NCBI RefSeq assembly: GCF_013141825.1
Contig: NZ_RZNH01000005.1
Location: 1-64,000, forward strand
Direction of reading: 5' to 3'
Source: Marinifilum caeruleilacunae
Lineage (GTDB): Bacteria; Bacteroidota; Bacteroidia; Bacteroidales; Marinifilaceae
Length of the DNA stretch: 64,000 bases
In this document: positions 12,183 through 56,198 of the stretch, in pieces
Numbering within the stretch: position 1 is the first letter of the stretch
Layout of the letters: every line of letters starts with the position of its first letter
Program-made: the position numbers and the translations under genes
The notes under the pieces: generated by a model
The model's database searches: none
Told to the model about the DNA's origin: nothing
Seen by the model: the letters and a program-made list of their open reading frames with translations, nothing else

Positions 12183-13124
12183 CTAGCCGTGCAGATCCAA
12201 TTCGTTTAGCATGTAAAGAGAGTGCTCAACAGTCTTAAAAATTTCCGAACAATACTCATTTACTGCCTTCGGACTGCCTGGCATTGCATAAACCAGGGTT
12301 TGATCCATTACACCTGCAATTCCCCGACTGACCAGTGCATTTGGCTTTTCCATGCCATATTTTACCCTAATCAGCTCCATAATACCCGGAATTTCTTTGC
12401 TAATGTGCTTTTTAACAACTTCTGGCGTTATATCTCGTGGACCAATACCTGTACCGCCAGTTGTAAAAACAATATCGTATTTCTCTTGTTTTGCCTGTTC
12501 AAGCAGTTTCGAAAGTTCCTCTTCCTGGTCAGGAATAATGTGTTTATCGATGGAGTAATGACGATTTCTCGATTTGTAGAAATCTTCGCATAGTTTTTCA
12601 GCAAGGGGACCACTTTTATCCATATACTCACCTCTTGAAGCTCTGTCGCTAAGGGTAATAATCATGGTTTTAATCACTCGTGGATGGTAAGTGAAAACAT
12701 CACCAGATTTCAAAGTTCCATCTTTTATCACCCTGCAAAAAATACCTTCTTTGGGCATAACACAATTTCCAACCTCTCTAAAAATATTACAATTGTCGCC
12801 ATGACATTTTTTCCCAATCTGGGTTACCTCAAGTTCAATTCCTCCATAAGTAAATCGATCGAGTGGGGCAGTGTGGTGTAGTAGAATTCCTTCGGTTGTG
12901 ATATTTTCTGCAAACTCGCCAAAATTTATTTTTCGCTTCGCTTCTTCCGAAAACTTGTCGATACTCTCCTTAGCCAATAAACTTACCTGCCTGTGCCAAT
13001 TGCCCGAATGAGCATCTTTATCCACACCTTTCGAATTCAGAAGAATCGATTCCACTGGTTTTTTAATCGTTCCTTTCTTTTCAGAAATGTTTACCGATAA
13101 TACTTTTACCTCTTTCTTACTCAT
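12183..13124 (-). CDS. MOSC domain / MogA-type molybdopterin adenylyltransferase fusion
   Basis: 313 residues. The N-terminal half (about 1-145) is a MOSC domain with a conserved Cys in GKKCHGDNC. The C-terminal half (about 150-313) is a MogA/MoaB-like domain with TTGGTGIGPRDITPE (from about 221) and AMPGSPKAVNE. Mog adenylylates molybdopterin before molybdate insertion; MOSC domains bind Moco or its sulfur carriers. It is the last gene of the molybdenum-cofactor operon, 9 bp after moaC. This fusion occurs in other Bacteroidota. Confidence 0.85.
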   Translation of the reverse strand: MSKKEVKVLSVNISEKKGTIKKPVESILLNSKGVDKDAHSGNWHRQVSLLAKESIDKFSEEAKRKINFGEFAENITTEGILLHHTAPLDRFTYGGIELEVTQIGKKCHGDNCNIFREVGNCVMPKEGIFCRVIKDGTLKSGDVFTYHPRVIKTMIITLSDRASRGEYMDKSGPLAEKLCEDFYKSRNRHYSIDKHIIPDQEEELSKLLEQAKQEKYDIVFTTGGTGIGPRDITPEVVKKHISKEIPGIMELIRVKYGMEKPNALVSRGIAGVMDQTLVYAMPGSPKAVNEYCSEIFKTVEHSLYMLNELDLHG

Positions 13125-13133
13125 AGCTAAAAA

Positions 13134-13589
13134 TTATTTCAGGTCAGTTTTTGTTTTGTCCAAAAGTGTAATGCCTTCAATCTTCATGTTTTTGTCAACT
13201 GCTTTACACATGTCATAAATGGTTAAAAGGGCTACACTTGCAGCAGTAAGCGCTTCCATTTCTACGCCAGTCTGTCCAATACATTTTACCCTAGTACTGG
13301 CAATTACACCATCATCCACTACAGTACATTTTACTTCGGCTTTTGTAATTTGTAAGCTGTGGCACAGGGGAATTAAATCACTTGTTTTTTTAGCGGCCTG
13401 AATGCCGGCAATTTCGGCAACGGTAAGAACATCACCTTTTTTTAGGTCGTTTTCTTTTATCAGCCTTATGGTTTCCTGCTCCAACAAGATTTTACCACTT
13501 GCTTTGGCTTCCCTAACTTGAGGAGGCTTGTGCCCAACATCCACCATATTGGCTTTTCCTTCTTTATCGATATGACTAAATTTTCCCAT
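13134..13589 (-). CDS. moaC: Cyclic pyranopterin monophosphate synthase accessory protein MoaC
   Basis: 151 residues, normal length for MoaC. Signatures MVDVGHKPPQVREAKASG near the start, LCHSL in the middle and TGVEMEALTAASVA with MCKAVDK at the end are all present. It acts with MoaA in the first step of molybdopterin synthesis, making cPMP from GTP. It lies between moaA (28-bp gap) and the MOSC-Mog gene in the Moco operon. moaD and moaE are not in this window. Confidence 0.95.
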   Translation of the reverse strand: MGKFSHIDKEGKANMVDVGHKPPQVREAKASGKILLEQETIRLIKENDLKKGDVLTVAEIAGIQAAKKTSDLIPLCHSLQITKAEVKCTVVDDGVIASTRVKCIGQTGVEMEALTAASVALLTIYDMCKAVDKNMKIEGITLLDKTKTDLK

Positions 13590-13617
13590 GCTAAATTCTT
13601 GTTACAGGCGTTTGGTT

Positions 13618-14418
13618 CTAACCGCCGATCCCGTAAAAACTACCTTTTTTGTTTTTGCTTCCCGTTTCAGGTTTCTGGTTTATCGATTCATTTATGGCTT
13701 TTTTTGCACCCAGTTTTTTCAAATCATATTCGCTCTGATTAAACAAGCAGGGTTTAACCTTACCATTCGCTGTTAACCTTATTCGGTTACATTCCTGACA
13801 ATTGCCTCCTTTACCACCTTCTACTATCGAGAATTCTCCCGTTGCCAAATCCATTTGCCTGATAAATCGAAGGTCAAGACCTTTGTTTTCACAGTACTTT
13901 CTCAAAGCTTCCAGGTCATCCAAATCGGAATCGGGCATTCTTACACAATTGATTTTAACTGGCTGAAGTCCTGAATTTATGGCAGCATCAATCCCTTTAA
14001 ATACATCTTTTATATTGCCAAGGCGAGTAAGAGATTTGTACTTTTCGGCATTCATGGTATCCAGGCTAATATTCACTCTCATCAATCCGGCTTCATGCAA
14101 TTGTTCGGCATATTTTTCCAGGAGAATACCATTTGTTGTCATGGCCAAATCTTCAATGCCCGGCAATTGAGCAATCTTTTTTACCAATTCAACAATTCCC
14201 TTTCTCACCAAAGGTTCCCCTCCGGTTAGTCTCACTTTCGTGATTCCTGTTGCAATGGCCTCTTTCACGAAATCAACAATCTCTTCGAAGCTCAAGACCT
14301 CTTCATGTGCAATCAAATCGATCCCATCTTCAGGCATGCAATAGGTACAACGAAGGTTGCAACGGTCGGTTACAGATATTCGTAAGTAATTGATATTTCG
14401 TTTATAATTGTCTAACAT
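13618..14418 (-). CDS. moaA: GTP 3',8-cyclase MoaA (compact form)
   Basis: Radical SAM enzyme that converts GTP to 3',8-cyclo-GTP. The start at 14418 (MLDNYKRNINYLRISV) is chosen over an upstream in-frame ATG because homology begins there. CNLRCTYC (from about 18) binds the first 4Fe-4S cluster and the C-terminal CQECNRIRLT with a later Cys binds the second. The protein ends in Gly-Gly, needed for activity in the family. At 266 residues it is about 60 shorter than usual: the segment before the second cluster is reduced. It overlaps the end of moeA by 17 bp. Confidence 0.9.
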   Translation of the reverse strand: MLDNYKRNINYLRISVTDRCNLRCTYCMPEDGIDLIAHEEVLSFEEIVDFVKEAIATGITKVRLTGGEPLVRKGIVELVKKIAQLPGIEDLAMTTNGILLEKYAEQLHEAGLMRVNISLDTMNAEKYKSLTRLGNIKDVFKGIDAAINSGLQPVKINCVRMPDSDLDDLEALRKYCENKGLDLRFIRQMDLATGEFSIVEGGKGGNCQECNRIRLTANGKVKPCLFNQSEYDLKKLGAKKAINESINQKPETGSKNKKGSFYGIGG

Positions 14419-15577
14419 GAACAAATTCTCCTTCCATAAATTCATCAACTTCTCTTGGAACAGCCATAATACCATTCGCAAAGGTAAATGCATTGATATG
14501 TGCCGAACCATGATAATCGATAGGAACAACTCTGTTGTTGGCATTAAAACGAACAGGGATAAACTCCAGCCTGTCAGTTCTCTTGCGTTTGTACGCTTGC
14601 GCAATTGGCATACGAACCATTGGAGCATTGTAATCGTGACCCATCAATCTAAAAAGTAGAGGTTTGCCCAGCAATTCGAACTGAACGAATGAAGAAACCG
14701 GGTTGCCAGGCATTGCAAAAACATATTGGCCGTTTTTTGCAGCAAAAACAGTATGCTTTCCTGGTTTAACCGCCAATGTATGGAACCAAATATTAAAACC
14801 AAGTTCTTTTAAAATTTGTGGTACATAGTCGTAATCGCCTACCGAAACACCTCCCGAGATGATTAAAATATCATTCTCTGCCAGGCATTTTTCCATGGTT
14901 TTTTTTGTGGCTTCTTTCGAGTCTTCTATGATTCCATAATAATTACCCTCAATACCCATTTTCTGTAACTGAGCCTGTAATTGCCAGGAATTTACATTTC
15001 TGATTTGTGAAGTATCCGGTTTTTGCTGTGGTTCAACCAATTCGCTTCCGGTTGCAAAAGTCGCAACATTTGGCTTTTTGTAAACCAAAGGATTGGTACA
15101 TCCCACCATTGCCAAAACCGAAACGTGTTGCGATTTTAATCTCGTTCCTTTTTTCAGAACCACTTCATTTTCCTCAATATCTTCACCCTTTATGCAGATG
15201 TTAGATTTGGTATTCTCTTTCGTAAATCGAATTTGATTTCCTTCAACCTCTTCGGTATGTTCAACCATGATTACCGTGTCGGCACCTTCAGGAACCATGG
15301 CTCCGGTCATGATTTTCGAACATTGTTTCTCACCCACTTTTTGGGTAGGAGCCGATCCTGCTGCAATCACTTCCAACACTTCAAGATCATCATTCAAATT
15401 CTCTTTTTTACAAGCATAACCATCCATAGCCGATTTGTTAAATGGCGGAATGGCCATATCCGAGTGCACATCTTCAGCCAATACACGATTTAAACACTCC
15501 GAAATATCAATGTGTTCTTTCTCAAGTTTTCGTGTTGCGTGTTTTACAGTTTTTAAAGCTTCGTGAAACGTAATCAT
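14402..15577 (-). CDS. moeA: Molybdopterin molybdenumtransferase MoeA
   Basis: 391 residues, the usual length. MoeA inserts molybdate into adenylylated molybdopterin. Signatures include PPFNKSAMDGYA near 44, MTGAMVPEGADTVI near 91, SGGVSVGDYDYV near 241 and AMPGNPVSSF near 292. It lies second in the Moco operon, 4 bp after the mobB-like gene and overlapping moaA. Confidence 0.95.
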   Translation of the reverse strand: MITFHEALKTVKHATRKLEKEHIDISECLNRVLAEDVHSDMAIPPFNKSAMDGYACKKENLNDDLEVLEVIAAGSAPTQKVGEKQCSKIMTGAMVPEGADTVIMVEHTEEVEGNQIRFTKENTKSNICIKGEDIEENEVVLKKGTRLKSQHVSVLAMVGCTNPLVYKKPNVATFATGSELVEPQQKPDTSQIRNVNSWQLQAQLQKMGIEGNYYGIIEDSKEATKKTMEKCLAENDILIISGGVSVGDYDYVPQILKELGFNIWFHTLAVKPGKHTVFAAKNGQYVFAMPGNPVSSFVQFELLGKPLLFRLMGHDYNAPMVRMPIAQAYKRKRTDRLEFIPVRFNANNRVVPIDYHGSAHINAFTFANGIMAVPREVDEFMEGEFVHVRQL

Positions 15578-15581
15578 ATTG

Positions 15582-16127
15582 CTAATTCTTTATTACCCAT
15601 TTTTGATTAGAAAATTCGATGTTTTTTGGGTCAAAATTGAATTGTTCACCATCAAATTCAATATTTACATCTGCCAATTTTCTGTAATCAATGGTTTGGG
15701 GCTTTAGTTTTTTATTGTTTTTATTCTCTATCATTAAAAATAAACCAGGTTTCAGGATATTTCTTAATCCTCCCGATTCTATAATTACCGGGCCAAGGGA
15801 TGAAATCATATTATCCAATAAATCCAGTACCTCCTTAAGTTTATCATCTTTGGCCTGTATATAATACACTTCTTTTGCTCCGGCACTTAAAAGTCTATTA
15901 CTGTCTTTCGATCCTTCCTCTTTGTACTCTTTGATGATTTGGTAATCATCTGTTTTTTTAATAAAAATAGTGTCGGCAGGCAGTTCATGAAAGTGTGGGC
16001 ATATCTTAATTCCAACTACATCAAATTTCGATTTTAACGATTCGATGAGTCGGCAGGCAAATAAAGTTTTGCCAACATTCTGACCATTTCCGGCCAATAG
16101 TATGATATGCTCCCTCTTTTTCGACAT
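15582..16127 (-). CDS. MobB-like P-loop protein of molybdenum-cofactor synthesis
   Basis: 181 residues from the start at 16127, where GGAGG lies seven bases upstream; an upstream in-frame ATG at 16250 is less likely. A P-loop GNGQNVGKT lies near residue 13 and the N-terminal half resembles MobB/dethiobiotin-synthase-like NTPases. MobB is an accessory to guanylation of Moco. The C-terminal half is not recognised. First gene of the Moco operon. The ribosome binding site is inside a terminator-like hairpin. Confidence 0.7.
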   Translation of the reverse strand: MSKKREHIILLAGNGQNVGKTLFACRLIESLKSKFDVVGIKICPHFHELPADTIFIKKTDDYQIIKEYKEEGSKDSNRLLSAGAKEVYYIQAKDDKLKEVLDLLDNMISSLGPVIIESGGLRNILKPGLFLMIENKNNKKLKPQTIDYRKLADVNIEFDGEQFNFDPKNIEFSNQKWVIKN

Positions 16128-16159
16128 AAAAAACCTCCAAATCTGTGCAGAATTGGAGG
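16128..16159 (-). promoter_or_regulatory. Hairpin sequestering the mobB ribosome binding site (candidate switch)
   Basis: On the minus strand CCTCCAA (16159-16153) pairs with TTGGAGG (16140-16134), and the inner TCTG/CAGA extends the stem after a single mismatch. Six U follow immediately, then ATG. The 3' arm holds the GGAGG ribosome binding site, so folding would both terminate transcription and hide the start. The upstream 150 nt contains another possible pairing (AGGTTG with CAACCT). It is a candidate molybdenum-cofactor-responsive leader, but I cannot match it to a named riboswitch. Confidence 0.5.
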
Positions 16160-16611
16160 CGAATGTCTTAGGTTGGATAGAATATGCTATACAATGGCAA
16201 AGTATAAGTCTTCCATCTGCAACCTTAATCACAATAAGTCTCCTTTCCAATTTTTGGACTGTATCCTGCGGGAGGCAAATTCGTTTCCCAATTTACCCAT
16301 CGGTTTATAAATCATACATTTTTAGAATTGCTTAGACTTTATAAACTCGGAGCTAATTTCATTAAGCAAGGTAAAGATATTAATATTAACGAATCTACAA
16401 ATGTGCATGTATGTCTAATGTAATAAAATTGAAATGCTATCGTTTGCATCAATTCTTGTTTAAGAGCTTGAAATGCTTGCAAAGTGATGCTTTTACATTT
16501 CTAATTGTTCAGTTTTTAAATTTCAATACCTTCGAAATTCTGGCTTATTTATATTTAGTTTTATTAAAAAATGACTTTATTTATCTGATTAATCAGTCAA
16601 AATCAATGTAG
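16160..16611. other. Intergenic region between the Moco operon and the CDF gene
   Basis: About 450 bases. The left part is the probable 5' leader of the Moco operon on the minus strand. The right part is AT-rich and contains a 12-bp palindrome CTGATTAATCAG at 16585-16596, just before the CDF start. I see no credible gene. Confidence 0.4.
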
Positions 16612-46318: not shown

Positions 46319-46990
46319 CTATTGTTGTAGAAGTCTGATAAGTTGTTGTCTATTCAGGATTTTAATTTCTCTTCGATGTGTTTCAATTAAACCTTCTTGT
46401 TCCATCTCTTTCAAGCTGCGGGCAAAGGAAGGTCGGGTTACCCCGAAAAACTGAGCCATCTCCGATTGTGATTTGGGCAAAGTAACCTGAACCTTATCCG
46501 GAGCAGCAAGTTTTAAAATGTAGTTCGCCAATTTTCCTTTAATGGTTTTAAAATTCAGGAACATGAGTTTGTTGGCCAGGAACTGACTTCGATTTGAAAT
46601 CAGGTTCAGATAATTGATCAGGAACACCTTGTTCTTTTGAAACAAATCGACCACAGATTCTTTTGCCAAAGAGAAGATTTCCACATCCTCATTTGCTGTA
46701 ACGTTTACCGGAAACTGATTTCTTTGTCCAAATAAAAAGGCAGAGGCAATGGGATAGGGAGCCATAATATCCTCAATTTTAATGCTCTTACCCGAAGGGT
46801 CAAGCATTTCTCCTTTCACACTTCCTTTCATTACAATCATTAAATGTTCACAACGATCTTCACGAAAGGCCACCATATCACCTTTTGAGTATTTCTTAAT
46901 TTTATACTGAGCATCCTGTAAGAGAGATTCCATTTCTGATGGAGAAATGCCTCTAAATACAGGTGATTGAGAGAGCTGTTCAAATAGCAT
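46319..46990 (-). CDS. Crp/Fnr-family transcriptional regulator
   Basis: 223 residues. A cyclic-nucleotide-binding-like beta barrel (about 15-120) precedes a long dimer helix and a C-terminal helix-turn-helix (SQSEMAQFFGVTRPSFARSLKEME, about 174-197; read in two parts). There is no N-terminal cysteine cluster of an Fnr-type 4Fe-4S protein, so sensing may be through heme or a small ligand. Location 200 bp upstream of fprA, same strand, suggests it controls that gene; HcpR-like NO sensors occur in this context. Confidence 0.85.
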   Translation of the reverse strand: MLFEQLSQSPVFRGISPSEMESLLQDAQYKIKKYSKGDMVAFREDRCEHLMIVMKGSVKGEMLDPSGKSIKIEDIMAPYPIASAFLFGQRNQFPVNVTANEDVEIFSLAKESVVDLFQKNKVFLINYLNLISNRSQFLANKLMFLNFKTIKGKLANYILKLAAPDKVQVTLPKSQSEMAQFFGVTRPSFARSLKEMEQEGLIETHRREIKILNRQQLIRLLQQ

Positions 46991-47123: not shown

Positions 47124-48359
47124 CTATACCATCTTTAATAAATTTCGTTTGAAACTGATTACCGATATGATGGTAAGTACTGCTCCAATTCCGAGAAGAA
47201 TTAACATTTTAGGCAGAATATCGATGAGAGGCAATTGCCTCCAGAAAATATCAAAGAAGCCTTCCATGGCCCAATAATTGACCGAAACTACCGCCAGTTT
47301 TTTCATGATAGCAGGCATAAAAAACAATGGCATCATACTTCCTCCAATGGCCGATATCACAAGAATAATAAGGGTTGATAAACTCTCTACCTGTTTTCTG
47401 CTTTTGCATATCGAGGCCATAAATATTCCAAAACTTGAACAGGCAATTGCTGCGCAAAGAATCATGAGAATAAGTGCTGGTAGATTGATAAAAATATCCA
47501 ACCCTAAAACCAACCAGGAATAAAGAAACATTACAGTTAATTGCAAGACAGCCATAAACAGGGTAGATAACATTTTGCCATATAAAATTCCCGAAGGTCT
47601 CACCGGTGCGATTAATAAACGTCGGAATGTACCATCTTCTTTTTCTTTTAATAAGGAAGCTCCACTGGCCGATACACTAAAGAGCAACATCATAATAGCG
47701 ATACCCGCAATGGCTTGTACCAATCCGAGGTTGCCATCCTTTTTCTCTCCAACCAAGGCCGTCATAGGAAGTTCAGAGTTTTCCTCAATTTCCGATTGCT
47801 CGTTCGAATTGCTGAACCCATCAAACTGTTCAGCCACCTGCGACTGAATGTCTTCGATTTCAGAATTAGAAAGGTCTGGATTTTTTTCTTTGATCCAGGT
47901 ATTCACCTTTCCTTTAATGCCTTTTTGCATGGTAATTCCGAAAAGGTTTGACCACAAAGCTTGTTGCAATAAACCCATTTCGATCTCTTTGGCTTCATCG
48001 TAGAACAATTCCATTGGGATTTTATTACCTGCCTCAACTGAGTCCTGGAATCCTTTGTACAGGACCAGTACAGCTGTTCTTTTCCCTTTTTTAATCAGGC
48101 TTTCGGCTTCAGCAAAGCTTTTAGCTTCCAGTTTTAGCCCTTCTTCGGCATCTAATGTGGTGAAAACCTCATTCGAAAGCTCAGTCTTGTCTTCATCGGT
48201 AAATAGCAGGTTAATGGCTTTCGATTTTTCTGATTTTCCAATTCCACCATACATCAATGCGAAAATGGTAATTAAAGCAATTGGGAGCAATAGCGATAAA
48301 AATACCGCAGTTTTATCTTTGAAATATTGCTTGATATCTTTTAATGCGATTGTAAACAT
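47124..48359 (-). CDS. ABC-2 type exporter permease
   Basis: 411 residues. One N-terminal membrane helix (about 17-36) precedes a large extracytoplasmic domain (about 40-220). A cluster of five helices completes the protein, the usual layout of ABC-2 permeases. It is paired with the ATPase gene 27 bp upstream, forming a two-gene exporter. The substrate (drug, lipid or polysaccharide) cannot be determined. Confidence 0.85.
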   Translation of the reverse strand: MFTIALKDIKQYFKDKTAVFLSLLLPIALITIFALMYGGIGKSEKSKAINLLFTDEDKTELSNEVFTTLDAEEGLKLEAKSFAEAESLIKKGKRTAVLVLYKGFQDSVEAGNKIPMELFYDEAKEIEMGLLQQALWSNLFGITMQKGIKGKVNTWIKEKNPDLSNSEIEDIQSQVAEQFDGFSNSNEQSEIEENSELPMTALVGEKKDGNLGLVQAIAGIAIMMLLFSVSASGASLLKEKEDGTFRRLLIAPVRPSGILYGKMLSTLFMAVLQLTVMFLYSWLVLGLDIFINLPALILMILCAAIACSSFGIFMASICKSRKQVESLSTLIILVISAIGGSMMPLFFMPAIMKKLAVVSVNYWAMEGFFDIFWRQLPLIDILPKMLILLGIGAVLTIISVISFKRNLLKMV

Positions 48360-48386
48360 GTTCTTTGGTTTTGGGTTGAATTAAAA

Positions 48387-49313
48387 TTAGTCGCGCAATG
48401 ATTTGCCTGTTAACTCCAGAAAGATGCTTTCCAAACTCAAGCTTCTGATATCTACCTTATCGAGCAGAAGTTCCGATTTAGAACAGAGCTGAATTAACTC
48501 GGGCAACTCGGCATTGGCCTGCGATGATGACAGAATCAAATGATCTTCATTCAAAAGAAGTTGGCCTTTGTAGCGATCAGTCAGTTGATCTAACTTATTT
48601 TTATTGGGATTGGAATATTTCAAATGAATTTCTTCTTTAATAGAAGAGTTGGTTTTTAGCTCATCCAAGCTTCCTTCTGCAATAATTTTTCCTTCATCAA
48701 TAATTCCAATTCTGTCGCACAAGCGTTCTGCTTCTTCCATATAATGTGTGGTATAAATCATGGTCAGTCCACGGGAATGCAGTTCTTCAATTACCTCAAA
48801 AATTAAGTTTCTACTTTGCGGATCGATGCCTACAGTCGGTTCATCCATAAAGACTATTTTAGGATCGTGCAGCAAGGCGGCGGCAATATTAATTCTTCGT
48901 TTCATACCGCCAGAGTAGGTTTTTATTTTGTGGTTTTTTCTATCGGCAAGCCCTAAGAATTCCAACAATTCATCGCTCTTTTTTTGCAGGTTTTTACCTT
49001 TAATTCCATATAAAGTTCCCCAAAATTTAAGATTCTCCGTAGCAGATAAATCATCGTATAATGCGATTTCCTGTGGCACAACGCCGATCAGTTTTTTACA
49101 CTCAGCAAGATTTTGATATAGGTTTTTGCCTTCGTAGAAAATTTCACCATTATCGGGTTTTAACAGTGAACTTAGTATGCTAATGGTCGTTGTTTTACCA
49201 GCGCCATTGGGGCCCAGCATACCATATAATTCTCCTTTTTCAATTGATAAATTTACATCGGAAAGCGCTGTAAGCTCTTTGTATGATTTTGTGAGGTTTT
49301 TTGCAAGAAGCAT
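48387..49313 (-). CDS. ABC exporter ATP-binding protein
   Basis: 308 residues from 49313; an in-frame ATG at 49352 adds 13 residues without homology. Walker A GPNGAGKTT (about 36), signature YSGGMKRR, Walker B IVFMDEPTVGIDP and the switch His in TTHYMEEA are all present. The C-terminal 80 residues are the family's accessory domain. It powers the ABC-2 permease encoded directly downstream. Confidence 0.92.
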   Translation of the reverse strand: MLLAKNLTKSYKELTALSDVNLSIEKGELYGMLGPNGAGKTTTISILSSLLKPDNGEIFYEGKNLYQNLAECKKLIGVVPQEIALYDDLSATENLKFWGTLYGIKGKNLQKKSDELLEFLGLADRKNHKIKTYSGGMKRRINIAAALLHDPKIVFMDEPTVGIDPQSRNLIFEVIEELHSRGLTMIYTTHYMEEAERLCDRIGIIDEGKIIAEGSLDELKTNSSIKEEIHLKYSNPNKNKLDQLTDRYKGQLLLNEDHLILSSSQANAELPELIQLCSKSELLLDKVDIRSLSLESIFLELTGKSLRD

Positions 49314-49383
49314 ATCGGTTGTGTATGGTTTATGAAAAACTAATTTACACAACTTAAATAGAAATATAAAATGATTTTATGAT

Positions 49384-51881: not shown

Positions 51882-51897
51882 TGTAACATCGGTTACA
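51882..51897 (+). promoter_or_regulatory. Crp/Fnr-like palindrome upstream of the ABC/GTPase operon
   Basis: TGTAAC (51882-51887), four bases, GTTACA (51892-51897): a perfect 6-bp inverted repeat, 60 bp before the operon start. The TGTAA-N6-TTACA geometry resembles Crp/Fnr-family sites. A Crp/Fnr gene lies 5 kb to the left. Confidence 0.5.
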
Positions 51898-51957
51898 ATT
51901 TATTTTTCTTTGAGCATCTACATTTGCAATAGAAAATCAATAAAAATCGGTTTCACA

Positions 51958-53244
51958 ATGGAGAATCAATATTTTAAGACCACAGATAGTTTGCTTGATA
52001 TTTGTACACAATATCCTGAAACAGTAAAAATTTTTGTTTCGAACGGATTCAAGCAATTAGAGGATGAAAAGAAAAGAGCTCTTTTTGGAAAATCTCTTTC
52101 TTTGGAGATGGCTTTGAAAATGAAGAAGTTGAATGTGGATACTTTTACTGCTTTATTGGTAGAAGGTATTGATTCAAACAGAGGACAGGTTGATGGTGAT
52201 TTGAATCAGAAAACAAAAGAAAAGAAAGAGGATTCAGTTCATGTACAAGGATTATTACCTTGTCCGGTAAGAGTGCCTCTTGTAGAAGGAATTGATTCAT
52301 TTATTGCTGATTACGAAAAGAAATACAAAAACGAGATTGTATACGATTTAAAGGCAGCATCGATGGGATTGGATTGGTTAATTGACGATGTAATTAACCA
52401 GGAAAATACAGATAACCTGGCCGATATTTTTATCTCTGCTGGTTTCGATTTGTTCTTCGATGAGAAGCTGATGGGGAAATTCAAGAAACAAGGAGTTTTT
52501 AAGGATAGCACAGGTTTTGAGCGATTAAACAAGGATTTTGATAATGAGGAGATTTCTCTTAAAGATCCGGAAGGGCACTATTCAATGATTGGAGTTGTAC
52601 CGGCGGTTTTCCTTGTAAATAAAGATGAATTGGGCGACCGACCAGTGCCTCGCACATGGGCAGATATTTTCAAGCCTGAATTTAAAAGAAGTGTAAGTTT
52701 ACCAATTAGCGATTTCGACTTGTTCAACTCTATGTTGCTACATATTTATAAAGCATATGGTGAAGAAGGCGTAAGAGGTTTAGGAGCATGTTTGCTTGAA
52801 AGTATGCACCCTTCGCAAATGGTAAAATCACATACCAAGAAAAACGAGAAGCCAGCCATTACCATTATGCCTTATTTCTTTACAAAAATGGTGAAACAGG
52901 GTGGACCAATGATCGCAGTTTGGCCGGAAGATGGAGCTATTATCAGCCCAATTTTCATGCTTACTAAGAAGGACAGGCTTGAAAAAACACAACCAGTAAT
53001 TGATTTCTTTGCCTCGGAAGGTGTAGGCGAGATTCTTTCTCACCAGGGATTATTCCCAAGTATCAATCCGAATGTGGATAACAAGCTGCCAAAAGAAAAC
53101 AAATTTATGTGGTTGGGTTGGGACTATATCAACACCAATGATATTGGTTCTCTGATTACAAAATGCGATGCCATTTTTAAGAAATCGATTCGTGATGAAT
53201 CCTTTGCCAATATGGGGCCATTGAATTATACGCCTGGCAATTAA
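51958..53244 (+). CDS. Cytoplasmic solute-binding-fold protein with DUF1858-like N-terminus
   Basis: 428 residues from ATG 51958; an upstream in-frame start (51862) adds residues over the operator region and is unlikely. There is no signal peptide. Residues about 5-70 (TTDSLLDICTQYPETVKIFVSNGF) resemble DUF1858, related to the ScdA N-terminal segment of iron-centre repair proteins. From about 95 on, the sequence resembles type II periplasmic solute-binding proteins (VVPAVFLVNKDE, PRTWADIF, MIAVWPEDGAIISPIFML). A binding protein kept in the cytoplasm is odd. First gene of a four-gene operon. Confidence 0.7.
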   Translation: MENQYFKTTDSLLDICTQYPETVKIFVSNGFKQLEDEKKRALFGKSLSLEMALKMKKLNVDTFTALLVEGIDSNRGQVDGDLNQKTKEKKEDSVHVQGLLPCPVRVPLVEGIDSFIADYEKKYKNEIVYDLKAASMGLDWLIDDVINQENTDNLADIFISAGFDLFFDEKLMGKFKKQGVFKDSTGFERLNKDFDNEEISLKDPEGHYSMIGVVPAVFLVNKDELGDRPVPRTWADIFKPEFKRSVSLPISDFDLFNSMLLHIYKAYGEEGVRGLGACLLESMHPSQMVKSHTKKNEKPAITIMPYFFTKMVKQGGPMIAVWPEDGAIISPIFMLTKKDRLEKTQPVIDFFASEGVGEILSHQGLFPSINPNVDNKLPKENKFMWLGWDYINTNDIGSLITKCDAIFKKSIRDESFANMGPLNYTPGN

Positions 53245-53291
53245 AAGAATGCTTAATTAATTTATTATTTTCGATTTAAACAACACAACAT

Positions 53292-53999
53292 ATGAACTTA
53301 GTTACAGTATCAGGACCTCCTTCATCAGGAAAAACAGCAGTAATTCTTAAAACCATCGATTCTTTCCAGAAACGTGGTTTGGAAGTAGGAGTCGTAAAAT
53401 TCGATTGTCTTTATACCGACGATGATATTTTATACGAGAAAGCAGGAGTTAAAGTAAAGAAAGGATTGTCTGGATCTCTTTGTCCTGATCATTACTTTGT
53501 AAGTAATATCGAAGAGGTAACCCAGTGGGGGATCAAAGAAGGCCTGGATATTTTAATTACCGAAAGTGCGGGATTGTGTAACCGTTGTTCTCCTTACGTG
53601 AAAAGTGTTACCGCCGTTTGTGTAATCGATAACCTAAGCGGTATCAATACACCTAAGAAAATTGGTCCAATGTTGAAATCTGCCGATATCGTAATCATTA
53701 CCAAAGGTGATATTGTTTCGCAGGCCGAACGTGAGGTTTTTGCATCGAGAGTAAATACGGTAAACCCTGGAGCAAGCATTATGCATGTAAACGGATTAAC
53801 CGGACAGGGAGCTTACGAGTTAAGTACATTGTTGTACGACGAAAAAGTTGAGGTGAAAACATTGGTTGGTGAAAAACTTCGATTCTCAATGCCATCGGCT
53901 CTTTGTTCATACTGTTTGGGTGAAACCAGAATTGGTGAAAGTTACCAAATGGGTAATGTTCGAAAAATTGACATGGAAGAGAAAAAGAAAAGAAGCTAG
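53292..53999 (+). CDS. HypB/G3E-like GTPase with cysteine motifs
   Basis: 235 residues. A P-loop GPPSSGKT (about 7-14) and Walker B-like LITESAGLCNRC show a SIMIBI-class NTPase of the HypB/UreG group. NKXD appears as TKGD (about 138). Cysteine pairs CNRC (about 97) and CSYC (about 206) could bind metal. Family members deliver Ni or Co to enzymes or chaperone cobalamin. Linked to the binding-protein gene (47-bp gap) and to the ABC ATPase downstream (20-bp gap). Confidence 0.75.
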   Translation: MNLVTVSGPPSSGKTAVILKTIDSFQKRGLEVGVVKFDCLYTDDDILYEKAGVKVKKGLSGSLCPDHYFVSNIEEVTQWGIKEGLDILITESAGLCNRCSPYVKSVTAVCVIDNLSGINTPKKIGPMLKSADIVIITKGDIVSQAEREVFASRVNTVNPGASIMHVNGLTGQGAYELSTLLYDEKVEVKTLVGEKLRFSMPSALCSYCLGETRIGESYQMGNVRKIDMEEKKKRS

Positions 54000-54019
54000 C
54001 ACTTAAAAACAAACACAGA

Positions 54020-55048
54020 ATGATTACAATTCAAGATATACAACAAAAGACAATAGCCGATTTATTTGAGCAGTATCCTTTTCTTCCTGGATTTTTTGAG
54101 GAAAATACCTTGGAAGTAGATGGACAAATCAACGAAAAGTTAGATGATTTTCTGAACATTTTAGATGATGAAGAGGAGAAAGAAAATCGTGCAATGGATA
54201 AAGCGCAGGTGATGGAGTCGATGGCCGAATACATTACACAAATGCTGGCCTTTCTTGGCGAAGATGAGGACGAAGGAGTAAACAGCATTACCCTTTTGCC
54301 AGGAACCAATAAATCGGGCGAAAAGGAAGAGTTCGAAGAGTTAACCATTAATAAAAGTGAGATTGTTTGTATAGTTGGTCCTACAGGATCGGGAAAAAGT
54401 AGATTATTGGCCGATATCGAATGGGTAGCACAGAATGATACGCCAACATCCAGAACCATTTTGGTGAATGGTGAAGAGGGCGATAAAAAATGGCGTGTTA
54501 CTTCGGGACACAAATTGGTTGCTCAGTTATCGCAGAACATGAACTTCGTAATGGACCTTTCGGTTTATGAGTTTATTGAATTGCATGCACAGAGCCGATT
54601 GGTTGAAGATGTGGAAGGTGTAATTCAAAAGATTTTTGAACAGGCAAATAACCTGGCTGGTGAAAAATTCTCACTGGATACGCCTATTACCAGTTTAAGT
54701 GGTGGTCAGTCGAGAGCCTTAATGATTGCAGATACAGCTATTCTAAGTAAATCTCCAATTATCTTGATTGATGAAATTGAGAATGCAGGTATCGACCGTA
54801 AAAAAGCATTGGAGCTATTGGTAGGAGAAGAAAAAATTGTATTAATGGCAACTCACGATCCAATTTTGGCATTGATGGGCGATCGAAGAATCGTGATCAA
54901 AAACGGTGGAATTCATAAGGTAATTGACACCAGTGGAGACGAGCAAAACCTTCTTTCGGAGCTGGAAAGAATGGACAATGTAATTCAGAACATGAGAACC
55001 CGTCTTCGCCACGGAGAAATTATCCGACAGGAAGATATCGGATTCTAA
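54020..55048 (+). CDS. ABC ATPase with DUF1858-like N-terminus, no permease partner
   Basis: 342 residues. Residues about 8-55 (TIADLFEQYPFLPGFFEEN) resemble the DUF1858-like segment of the first operon protein. The ABC domain follows: Walker A GPTGSGKS (about 118), signature LSGGQSRA (about 230), Walker B PIILIDEIENAG and switch ATHD. It is soluble. No membrane subunit is encoded near it, so it is unlikely to drive transport. Soluble ABC ATPases of this type act on protein complexes (compare SufC, or AtwA of methanogens). Confidence 0.75.
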   Translation: MITIQDIQQKTIADLFEQYPFLPGFFEENTLEVDGQINEKLDDFLNILDDEEEKENRAMDKAQVMESMAEYITQMLAFLGEDEDEGVNSITLLPGTNKSGEKEEFEELTINKSEIVCIVGPTGSGKSRLLADIEWVAQNDTPTSRTILVNGEEGDKKWRVTSGHKLVAQLSQNMNFVMDLSVYEFIELHAQSRLVEDVEGVIQKIFEQANNLAGEKFSLDTPITSLSGGQSRALMIADTAILSKSPIILIDEIENAGIDRKKALELLVGEEKIVLMATHDPILALMGDRRIVIKNGGIHKVIDTSGDEQNLLSELERMDNVIQNMRTRLRHGEIIRQEDIGF

Positions 55049-55143
55049 TAAAATAAGAGTAAAATAATTCAAACGAATAAGGATTCTGGCTGAATGTTGA
55101 GAAGGCCATGAACCATTGACTAACTAATCAGGAGGAAATAATT

Positions 55144-55386
55144 ATGCATGACGGATGCGCAGGAAGTTTTGAGAACGGAAAACAAGTAGTTGATAAAATT
55201 AGAATGATGGGTTTTGCTCAGCAATTGATGCCAATGCCTATGGAGATTGAGTGTCAGGGTTGTAAAGAAACTTTTACCATGGAAGAGTTCGAAGGACATT
55301 GTCCTAAGTGCGACATGGTACACGGTGTAACACCTTGTCACGCATTCGATCCGAATAACATTATGGCTGCTGGTATCGGTTACTAA
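55144..55386 (+). CDS. Small zinc-ribbon protein
   Basis: 80 residues. Two CxxC pairs (CQGC near 39, CPKC near 55) form a zinc or iron ribbon, with further Cys at 5 and 68. The start has AGGAGG nine bases upstream, a much stronger ribosome binding site than its neighbours, which suggests high-level synthesis. Last gene of the ABC/GTPase operon (95-bp gap), followed by a double hairpin. I know no function; a metal or electron carrier for the other three is plausible. Confidence 0.7.
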   Translation: MHDGCAGSFENGKQVVDKIRMMGFAQQLMPMPMEIECQGCKETFTMEEFEGHCPKCDMVHGVTPCHAFDPNNIMAAGIGY

Positions 55387-55406
55387 GAATTGGATTAAAA
55401 TATTGT

Positions 55407-55460
55407 CACGGGACTTGAACCGTGCTGAATTCCCAACAGACTGTTCTGTTGGGATTTTTT
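55407..55460 (+). terminator. Double hairpin terminator of the ABC/GTPase operon
   Basis: A first hairpin (CACGG/CCGTG, 55407-55424) is followed by a perfect 10-bp stem TCCCAACAGA (55431-55440) with TCTGTTGGGA (55445-55454) and six T. Confidence 0.85.
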
Positions 55461-55514: not shown

Positions 55515-56198
55515 ATGAACCTTAATTTAGTAGACCAACTTACATTATTGGCCCTGGATGATGAAAAAGGGAGTTTTGTTGCAGATAGTTTTTCATTTGC
55601 CTATGGCCTTGCCGGAGCAATCATTCTGGAACTTTCTTTACAGGACAGAATAGAAATTGTTGGCAAAAAAATAAAAGTAAGATCAAAAGAATCTTGTAAT
55701 AATGCATTGTTGGATTATTTCCTGGATAAAATGAGTAATTCCAAAAAAGAAAGATCCATTCAAACCTGGGTAGAAAACATTGGGGAAAAAGTTTCATACA
55801 TCAAAGAAGAAACAGTTGACAAGCTAATTCTGGAAGGCATTTTAAGAAGGGAAGAAAAAAAGATTTTATGGATTTTTTCTGTAGATAAATTCCCGGCTGA
55901 AAATGCTAAGCCGGAAAACCTGCTAAGAAAACGCCTGAATCATATTCTGCTAAACGATAAGGACGTAAATATGCATGAAATTATGCTGATTAGTTTAATT
56001 GACATGTGTGAGCTAAACAATGAAGTTTATGGCAAGCAGAGAGCCAAAGAGTACAAGAAAAAAATAAAAGCAATAATAGAGAAAGGACAGTTGAGCTCAG
56101 AAATTGGAAAGGCAGTAAAAGAAATACACGATGCATTAATGGCTGTTATTGTAGTTTTAATTACCACTACTGCTGTCACAACAAGCATAAGTTCTTAA
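55515..56198 (+). CDS. GPP34 (Golgi phosphoprotein 3-like) family protein
   Basis: 227 residues. The N-terminal LVDQLTLLALDDEKGSF and YGLAGAIILELSLQDRIEI match the start of GPP34 domains. The remainder is helical with LLRKRLNHILL and a hydrophobic C-terminal end (about 205-225). Eukaryotic GOLPH3 binds phosphatidylinositol-4-phosphate. The bacterial role is unknown. The C-terminal hydrophobic stretch could anchor it to the membrane. Confidence 0.8.
   Translation: MNLNLVDQLTLLALDDEKGSFVADSFSFAYGLAGAIILELSLQDRIEIVGKKIKVRSKESCNNALLDYFLDKMSNSKKERSIQTWVENIGEKVSYIKEETVDKLILEGILRREEKKILWIFSVDKFPAENAKPENLLRKRLNHILLNDKDVNMHEIMLISLIDMCELNNEVYGKQRAKEYKKKIKAIIEKGQLSSEIGKAVKEIHDALMAVIVVLITTTAVTTSISS

Follow-up and report, generated by a model that had tools for sequence, protein, structure and literature searches.

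A permease-free ABC ATPase–GTPase operon of anaerobic bacteria with an HcpR2-type operator and a candidate role in metal-centre repair

The DNA analyzed here (the window) is a stretch of 64,000 nucleotides from Marinifilum caeruleilacunae (contig NZ_RZNH01000005.1, positions 1–64,000). Its positions 51958–55386 hold four same-strand open reading frames (ORFs) that encode a solute-binding-fold protein (SBP), a GTPase, an ATP-binding cassette (ABC) ATPase and a zinc-ribbon protein. The hybrid cluster protein, Hcp, reduces nitric oxide (NO), and the operator that precedes the four genes also precedes hcp in the same genome. Judged from these sites, the operon very probably belongs to the HcpR2 (nitric-oxide) regulon, and it is probably an undescribed part of the means by which anaerobes survive NO. 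The case for this regulation is strong and does not depend on what the four proteins do. It is a new result, absent from the original prediction, which had been made from the sequence alone and had proposed an ATP- and GTP-driven cytoplasmic device that builds or repairs a metalloenzyme; the regulation supplies the biology to that proposal.

The operon and its operator

The operon is bracketed by a palindromic operator at 51882–51897 and by an intrinsic terminator on the plus strand, with a hairpin at 55431–55454 (fold −16.4 kcal/mol, z −5.0) and a T-run up to 55460; the borders originally predicted match both. Between them lie, on the plus strand, the genes of the SBP (51958–53244, 428 amino acids from an ATG start), the GTPase (53292–53999, 235 amino acids), the ABC ATPase (54020–55048, 342 amino acids) and the ribbon protein (55144–55386, 80 amino acids), which are the four co-directional genes of the prediction.

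The operator, TGTAACATCGGTTACA, is a palindrome of the form TGTAAC-N4-GTTACA and matches exactly the motif GTAACnnnnGTTAC, which is predicted for HcpR2 in the accessible part of Rodionov et al. 2005 (PMC1274295). A pattern search of the 5.27-Mb genome located two copies of the 16-bp pattern, one before the operon and one about 110 bp before the hcp start, and the chance expectation in the window, with up to one mismatch, is 0.10. The 14-bp core has five copies in the genome versus 18 for the reversed control pattern, and the other three copies lie inside ORFs. A Crp/Fnr-family regulator of the HcpR2 type is encoded 5 kb from the operon, on the minus strand (46319–46990), and displays R-P in its recognition helix (VTRPSFARSL). 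The accessible part of the same paper associates a Pro at CRP position 181 of the regulator with a GTAACN4GTTAC motif (PMC1274295). From its translation and alignment, this regulator probably controls both the operon and hcp, and we infer that it binds the operator.

The site recurs in other genomes. Paralogues of the GTPase were reached with a second query, and a FastTree tree of 135 distinct GTPases contains a clade A (90 tips, support 0.93) that holds the SBP, ribbon and hcp contexts. With the Marinifilaceae collapsed to the window locus, the exact core was found 5' of the SBP gene in 38 of 98 clade A operons, 5' of 12 of the 30 hcp genes of the same loci, and 5' of one of 1578 control ORFs; the upstream region of this one is common to it and another Crp/Fnr gene. 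Within 2.5 kb 5' of the GTPase gene, in a count that leaves out 18 Fusobacteriota loci fetched separately, the exact core is present for 25/82 clade A genes versus 0/45 genes of other clades. A separate count that allowed one mismatch gave 24/65 versus 26/813, many of the 26 being hcp genes or divergent ORFs that share a site. A perfect TTGACN4GTCAA occupies the place of the core in two Spirochaete loci.

Proteins encoded by the operon

The SBP matches the Pfam family SBP_bac_6 (E 8e-86) and, at its N-terminus, DUF1858 (E 3e-15). The absence of a signal peptide, as predicted, was borne out by a simple hydrophobicity test for an export signal, which was negative for the window protein and for 100 of 100 homologues, and positive for 17 of 23 periplasmic controls. 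Residues G98, L100, P101, C102, H284 and W322 are invariant in an alignment of 63 homologues. An AlphaFold2 model (mean predicted local distance difference test score 87.8, predicted template-modelling score 0.75) places C102 where the helix that follows the first SBP-domain strand begins, a position that we take to be where SBPs bind their ligands. The fold matches listed for the model include P5PA, FbpA/FutA, AfuA, PotD and others, and 30 of the 50 listed, many of them redundant, are iron-binding proteins; the modelled fold allows iron as the ligand, without being proof of it. A profile search of the PDB returned P5PA and 2fi0, a 'conserved domain protein' that is matched over the DUF1858 region and is presumably a DUF1858 protein. 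In Parvimonas micra SYY, a genome in which no Hcp was found, the SBP gene is divided into two ORFs (L095:8066–9283), possibly through decay following the loss of hcp.

The GTPase matches the Pfam family cobW (E 2e-13), and its relatives of known structure in a PDB profile search are UreG, HypB and, through the P-loop region, RecA. Its score against the HypB equivalog TIGR00073 is 48.6 bits, for a cut-off of 121 bits. The two predicted CxxC pairs are located at residues 96–99 and 205–208, and the description as a HypB/UreG-type GTPase is retained. Eight residues (C64, D66, H67, C96, R98, C99, C205 and C208) are invariant in all 135 aligned GTPases across clades, and six of them, C64, H67, C96, C99, C205 and C208, are candidate metal ligands. 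Identity to the window protein amounts to 74–83% across phyla in the aligned set.

The ABC protein matches ABC_tran (E 1e-17) and contains GPTGSGKS, LSGGQ, LIDE and ATHD, which we take to be the Walker A, signature, Walker B and H-loop motifs, respectively; aligned members are 59–71% identical to it. The protein is a soluble ABC ATPase, as anticipated, and the operon has no permease. A DUF1858-like N-terminus had been proposed for two of the proteins. This is well supported for the SBP but weak for the ABC protein, which aligns to the domain with an hhalign E of 0.0015 (probability 17%); PF08984 was matched by nine of 20 ABC members (best E 0.007), the window member not being among them.

The ribbon protein has the expected two CxxC pairs, at residues 37–40 and 53–56, and the further motifs H-x-G-C and VTPC. 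Its similarity to HypA is restricted to the zinc-ribbon part, with 20.4 bits against PF01155 (cut-off 28.9) and 18.6 bits against TIGR00100 (cut-off 88). HypA carries an N-terminal Met-His-Glu nickel site. The ribbon protein does not show this arrangement: the position of the His in its conserved HxGC varies and need not be residue 2 (MAHDGC, MGVHDGC, MANEHDGC). A PDB profile search with the ribbon protein gave nothing convincing.

Conservation of the operon, association with Hcp and paralogous clades

A scan of GTDB genomes with the ABC protein gave at least 548 stretches at a tblastn E of 1e-3 or better, not all of which need belong to the same family. The best 80 were kept; their ABC proteins are 60–98% identical, and they derive from Bacteroidota, Clostridia/Tissierellia, Spirochaetes, Fusobacteria, Cloacimonadota, Aminicenantes, Fermentibacteria and others. 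Together with 10 further loci, 90 were examined for linkage, of which 89 have the GTPase, 85 the SBP and 57 the ribbon gene, in the order SBP–GTPase–ABC. In all five loci without an SBP, the operon is cut by a contig end, and eight of the 85 SBPs are only weakly similar and correspond to loci of another clade with a different SBP (L018–L025). The plasmid search yielded one close relative, on an unannotated 2.1-Mb Fusobacterium vincentii replicon filed as a plasmid; the remaining matches listed look like generic ABC proteins.

In a clustering of the ORFs of the loci, the non-core neighbour found most often was hcp (19 loci; identity confirmed by TIGR01703), and 12 of 20 neighbouring hcp genes begin 1–2 kb after the start of the ABC gene. 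Next come an Rrf2 regulator, in 13 loci, and a Crp/Fnr regulator, in 12 with the Marinifilaceae collapsed, both named by eye. No stand-alone ABC permease family recurs among the neighbouring ORFs. Fused ABC exporters are present in seven loci, and a polytopic same-strand protein lies within 1.5 kb in 25 of 100 loci, with 29 membrane proteins in all. Ten of the 29 were scanned: EamA (three), PepSY_TM, ArsP_1, CTP_transf_1 and LysO were over cut-off, one protein fell just under the DUF1048 cut-off, and two had no family. The claim that no membrane subunit lies nearby needs one qualification: an ABC-2 type exporter, named by eye, is found 3.6 kb from the operon on the opposite strand (47124–49352); it looks like a separate transporter. 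Neither a conserved permease, nor a real signal peptide, nor a lack of linkage in other genomes was encountered, and transport is unlikely, in agreement with the original prediction. Elsewhere in the window, a GPP34/Golgi phosphoprotein 3 family protein is encoded directly 3' of the operon terminator (55515–56198), and a minus-strand region (12183–16364) has an ordinary arrangement of a molybdenum cofactor riboswitch (16224–16364) 5' of MobB-, MoeA-, MoaA-, MoaC- and MoaB-like genes, named by eye.

An hcp gene is located within 7 kb of 25/82 clade A GTPases versus 0/44 GTPases of other clades, and at least one NO-type link was found in 50 of the 82 clade A loci. Fifty named clade A carriers, out of the 80 loci, were examined for Hcp, and 43 have a TIGR01703 match, 42 of them over cut-off. 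In a sample of the class Clostridia, 121 of 245 genomes have an Hcp match (115 over cut-off), as do all 11 clade A carriers, for which the chance probability is about 3e-4 by hand calculation; the sample contains 14 carriers, three of which (G287, G310 and G375) belong to other clades. The co-occurrence in Bacteroidota (Hcp in 9/9 carriers and in 34/148 genomes overall) was not used as support because eight of the nine carriers are of another clade. Carbon monoxide dehydrogenase (CODH) was discarded as a partner, the single Prismane match of the window's own genome being Hcp.

The association is absent in Fusobacteriota, where the GTPase occurs in 55 of 98 genomes and Hcp in 38/55 carriers versus 28/43 non-carriers (Fisher p 0.83); these carriers were assigned to clade A by 72–82% identity, without a tree of all, and one 17.8-bit Hcp match (G855) was counted as none. 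Genomes without detectable Hcp, some of which may be incomplete, account for seven of the 50 named carriers and 17 of the 55 Fusobacteriota carriers. Loci were fetched for 18 of the 55, and the exact site is present in 13, including five of the six from genomes without Hcp; several of the Hcp-less genomes are fragmentary, and one such site is on a 2.29-Mb contig (G855). The retention of the site in these loci favours a target beyond Hcp. The predicted link to a metalloenzyme is supported by hcp proximity and the shared operator type, but no single metalloenzyme is strictly tracked.

The clades of the GTPase tree differ in their neighbourhoods. The comparison leaves out of the other clades one tip, L037_14468, which is a gene of the Fe-S clade situated in a clade A locus that has hcp. 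The ribbon gene is found near 48/82 clade A GTPases versus 0/44 others; by contrast, a FecCD permease (0/82 versus 15/44), a methyltransferase (0/82 versus 13/44), DUF364 (0/82 versus 4/44) and an Fe-S-type protein (1/82 versus 18/44) accompany the other clades, and Crp/Fnr regulators show no difference (12/82 versus 5/44). The hydrophobicity test detected an export signal in 0/18 other-clade SBPs, and a P-C-(P/A) loop is common to 12/22 of these proteins.

Several arrangements were observed among the paralogues. GTPase–ABC modules, mostly with a cytosolic SBP, are situated in or beside FecBCD-type importer operons (L018–L025, L129, L132, L133, L197, L201 and L206), often carry an S-adenosylmethionine (SAM) methyltransferase of about 200 amino acids and, in L020 and L024, lie near genes that by eye resemble a molybdate-type importer. 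In L134:8612–15231, NifH-, NifD- and NifK-like genes and a Peripla_BP_2 protein come directly after a GTPase–ABC–SBP triplet; the genome (G338) contains the hcp-linked copy too. In L173–L192 (no GTPase was found in L184), the GTPases stand nearly always beside an ABC gene and are followed by a protein of about 220 amino acids, which in the six loci inspected bears PPGK(N/D)CGLCG, a motif of Fe-S type, as well as a conserved GRPMGAGCPIPH segment; we know of no description of this protein. Three further loci (L130, L205 and L210) combine the GTPase–ABC pair with a DUF364/DUF4213 protein (putative heavy-metal chelation), a methyltransferase and an NTPase-like protein of about 172 amino acids.

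The GTPase–ABC pair might form the core of an undescribed superfamily of cytosolic machines that use two nucleotides to handle metal centres, a tentative proposal toward which we remain somewhat doubtful. An interchangeable cargo protein would set the job of each clade: repair of NO damage beside Hcp in clade A, processing of imported metal chelates with FecBCD, SAM methyltransferase and DUF364, support of NifHDK-like nitrogenases, and an Fe-S-domain version. If the core does serve chelate importers and nitrogenase-like enzymes as well, it would represent a general route of metal-centre handling, one that annotation probably conceals under the label of an orphan ABC transporter.

Candidate function and relation to known systems

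The explanation that we favour, with our judgement about evenly divided, is that the operon encodes a device that is induced by NO, runs on ATP and GTP, binds iron or a complex of iron, and repairs damaged metalloproteins or loads them anew. In the presence of NO, HcpR2 would turn on hcp, for NO removal, together with the operon, for the metal centres wrecked by NO. The FbpA-like SBP would bind ferric iron, or an iron-thiol or iron-nitrosyl fragment, in its cleft (C102, H284) and dock through its DUF1858 domain, and the ABC ATPase would power opening or release rather than membrane transport. The GTPase, with the ribbon protein as a HypA-like partner, would accept the metal with its six Cys/His ligands, then pass it to client apo-proteins, Hcp among them where present. 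This repair mechanism is drawn from protein families, and our confidence in it falls a little short of even: a HypB/UreG-type GTPase with a zinc ribbon points to the passing on of a metal, a cytosolic FbpA-like protein to the capture of a metal, an anion or a complex, and a permease-free ABC ATPase to conformational work. Within an NO regulon, recovering iron from nitrosylated metalloproteins, Hcp included, and reloading them would be the simplest common task. The cytosolic SBP, the HypB/UreG-type GTPase, the gene linkage and the metalloenzyme link all agree with the device originally predicted; the building or repair itself we infer.

A number of observations weigh against this explanation. 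The SBP fold also matches pyridoxal phosphate-, sugar-phosphate- and spermidine-binding proteins and does not reveal the ligand, and nickel, zinc or another metal may take the place of iron. The operator is found in only 38 of the 98 clade A operons, and none of the four scored links is present in 32 of the 82 clade A loci. In the Clostridia sample, 110 of the 121 Hcp-bearing genomes have no clade A operon, and Fusobacteriota carriers show no association with Hcp. The ribbon protein is probably not essential, because it is encoded near only 48 of 82 clade A GTPases. Moreover, loci from the same lineage do not count as independent.

A maturase dedicated to Hcp, which would build or repair its hybrid Fe-S-O cluster in the way that HypA and HypB serve NiFe-hydrogenase, would account for hcp being the commonest non-core neighbour (19 loci; 25/82 versus 0/44), for its operator of the same type, and for the presence of Hcp in 11/11 Clostridia clade A carriers and 43/50 named carriers (42 over cut-off). 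However, many Hcp-bearing genomes have no operon, Hcp is active in E. coli, which is not known to have one, and the HcpR site is kept in five of six loci from Fusobacteriota without Hcp. We consider this alternative unlikely, and as the sole reading a strict Hcp maturase was rejected on account of the 17/55 Fusobacteriota carriers without Hcp (p 0.83).

The invariance of the six Cys/His residues across all GTPase clades, the one paralogous pair linked to NifH/NifD/NifK-like genes, and the 18/44 non-A GTPases linked to a protein that starts with an Fe-S-type cysteine motif are compatible with a low-potential electron donor or reductive activator driven by ATP and GTP. Its GTPase cysteines would hold an inter-subunit Fe-S cluster in the fashion of NifH, and the ABC protein would energise the passage of electrons to Hcp or to a centre that has been damaged. 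Such a donor leaves the SBP without a role, and the nearest solved relatives of the GTPase outside RecA are metal-insertion GTPases; we give it little credence.

Still less probable is a cytosolic scavenger or sensor, in which the SBP would sequester a small species of nitrosyl or iron, with the NTPases doing no more than regulate it: membership of the NO regulon and a cleft region with invariant C102 and H284 would suit this role, but a GTPase identity of 74–83% across phyla suggests a machine with many contacts rather than a buffer. A degenerate or split ABC importer with its permease encoded elsewhere is very improbable, since the SBP and ABC ATPase folds, the polytopic same-strand proteins near 25/100 loci, the fused ABC exporters in seven loci, the Ssu-type importer genes near 2/82 and, near the Fusobacteriota locus L237, a Fec-type importer are set against an export signal in 0/100 SBPs, a FecCD-type permease near 0/82 clade A GTPases, ten scanned membrane proteins (of the 29) of unrelated families or none, and a GTPase in 89/90 loci.

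The operon bears on two questions that, to our knowledge, await an answer: how strict anaerobes rebuild metal enzymes after exposure to NO, and whether Hcp requires helper proteins. It is widespread, and its sequence puts it under an NO switch of the type that hcp has, which renders the matter directly testable in culturable anaerobes. No published description of the operon was found in a literature search, outside of which lay most subscription papers and RegPrecise; on this limited search and general knowledge, both the operon and the GTPase–ABC superfamily are apparently not previously described.

With the HcpR2–hcp regulon of nitrosative stress, the operon has in common the operator type, the regulator type and, in most carriers, hcp itself; the accessible parts of PMC1274295 and PMC12915319 do not name it as a member. 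According to those parts, the HcpR2 regulons of most Bacteroides, F. nucleatum and others hold hcp genes only (PMC1274295, PMC12915319), and the C. difficile HcpR targets named are hcp and frdX (PMC12915319). The accessible part of a study of CODH/HCP neighbourhoods, which describes the HCP neighbours as too varied for interpretation, does not name the operon (PMC13056359). An NO response is also a feature of the RIC/YtfE/ScdA di-iron repair proteins; their hemerythrin domain is not among the Pfam matches of the four operon proteins. ScdA_N, presumably, resembles DUF1858. SufC and CooC are soluble NTPases for metal-centre assembly, and the operon contains neither a SufB/D scaffold nor a CODH. 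FbpA/FutA-type iron importers share the SBP fold and the ABC ATPase, and the operon differs from them in having no export signal and no permease, and in the addition of the GTPase and DUF1858. Like the HypA/HypB/UreG systems, the operon pairs a CobW/HypB/UreG-family GTPase with a zinc-ribbon partner; its GTPase has candidate Cys/His metal ligands, and UreG and HypB are solved relatives of it. The operon proteins, however, score far under the curated HypB, UreG and HypA cut-offs, no urease or NiFe-hydrogenase gene accompanies them in the operon, and the GTPase is distinguished by its extra C-terminal CxxC and by its ABC ATPase and cytosolic SBP partners.

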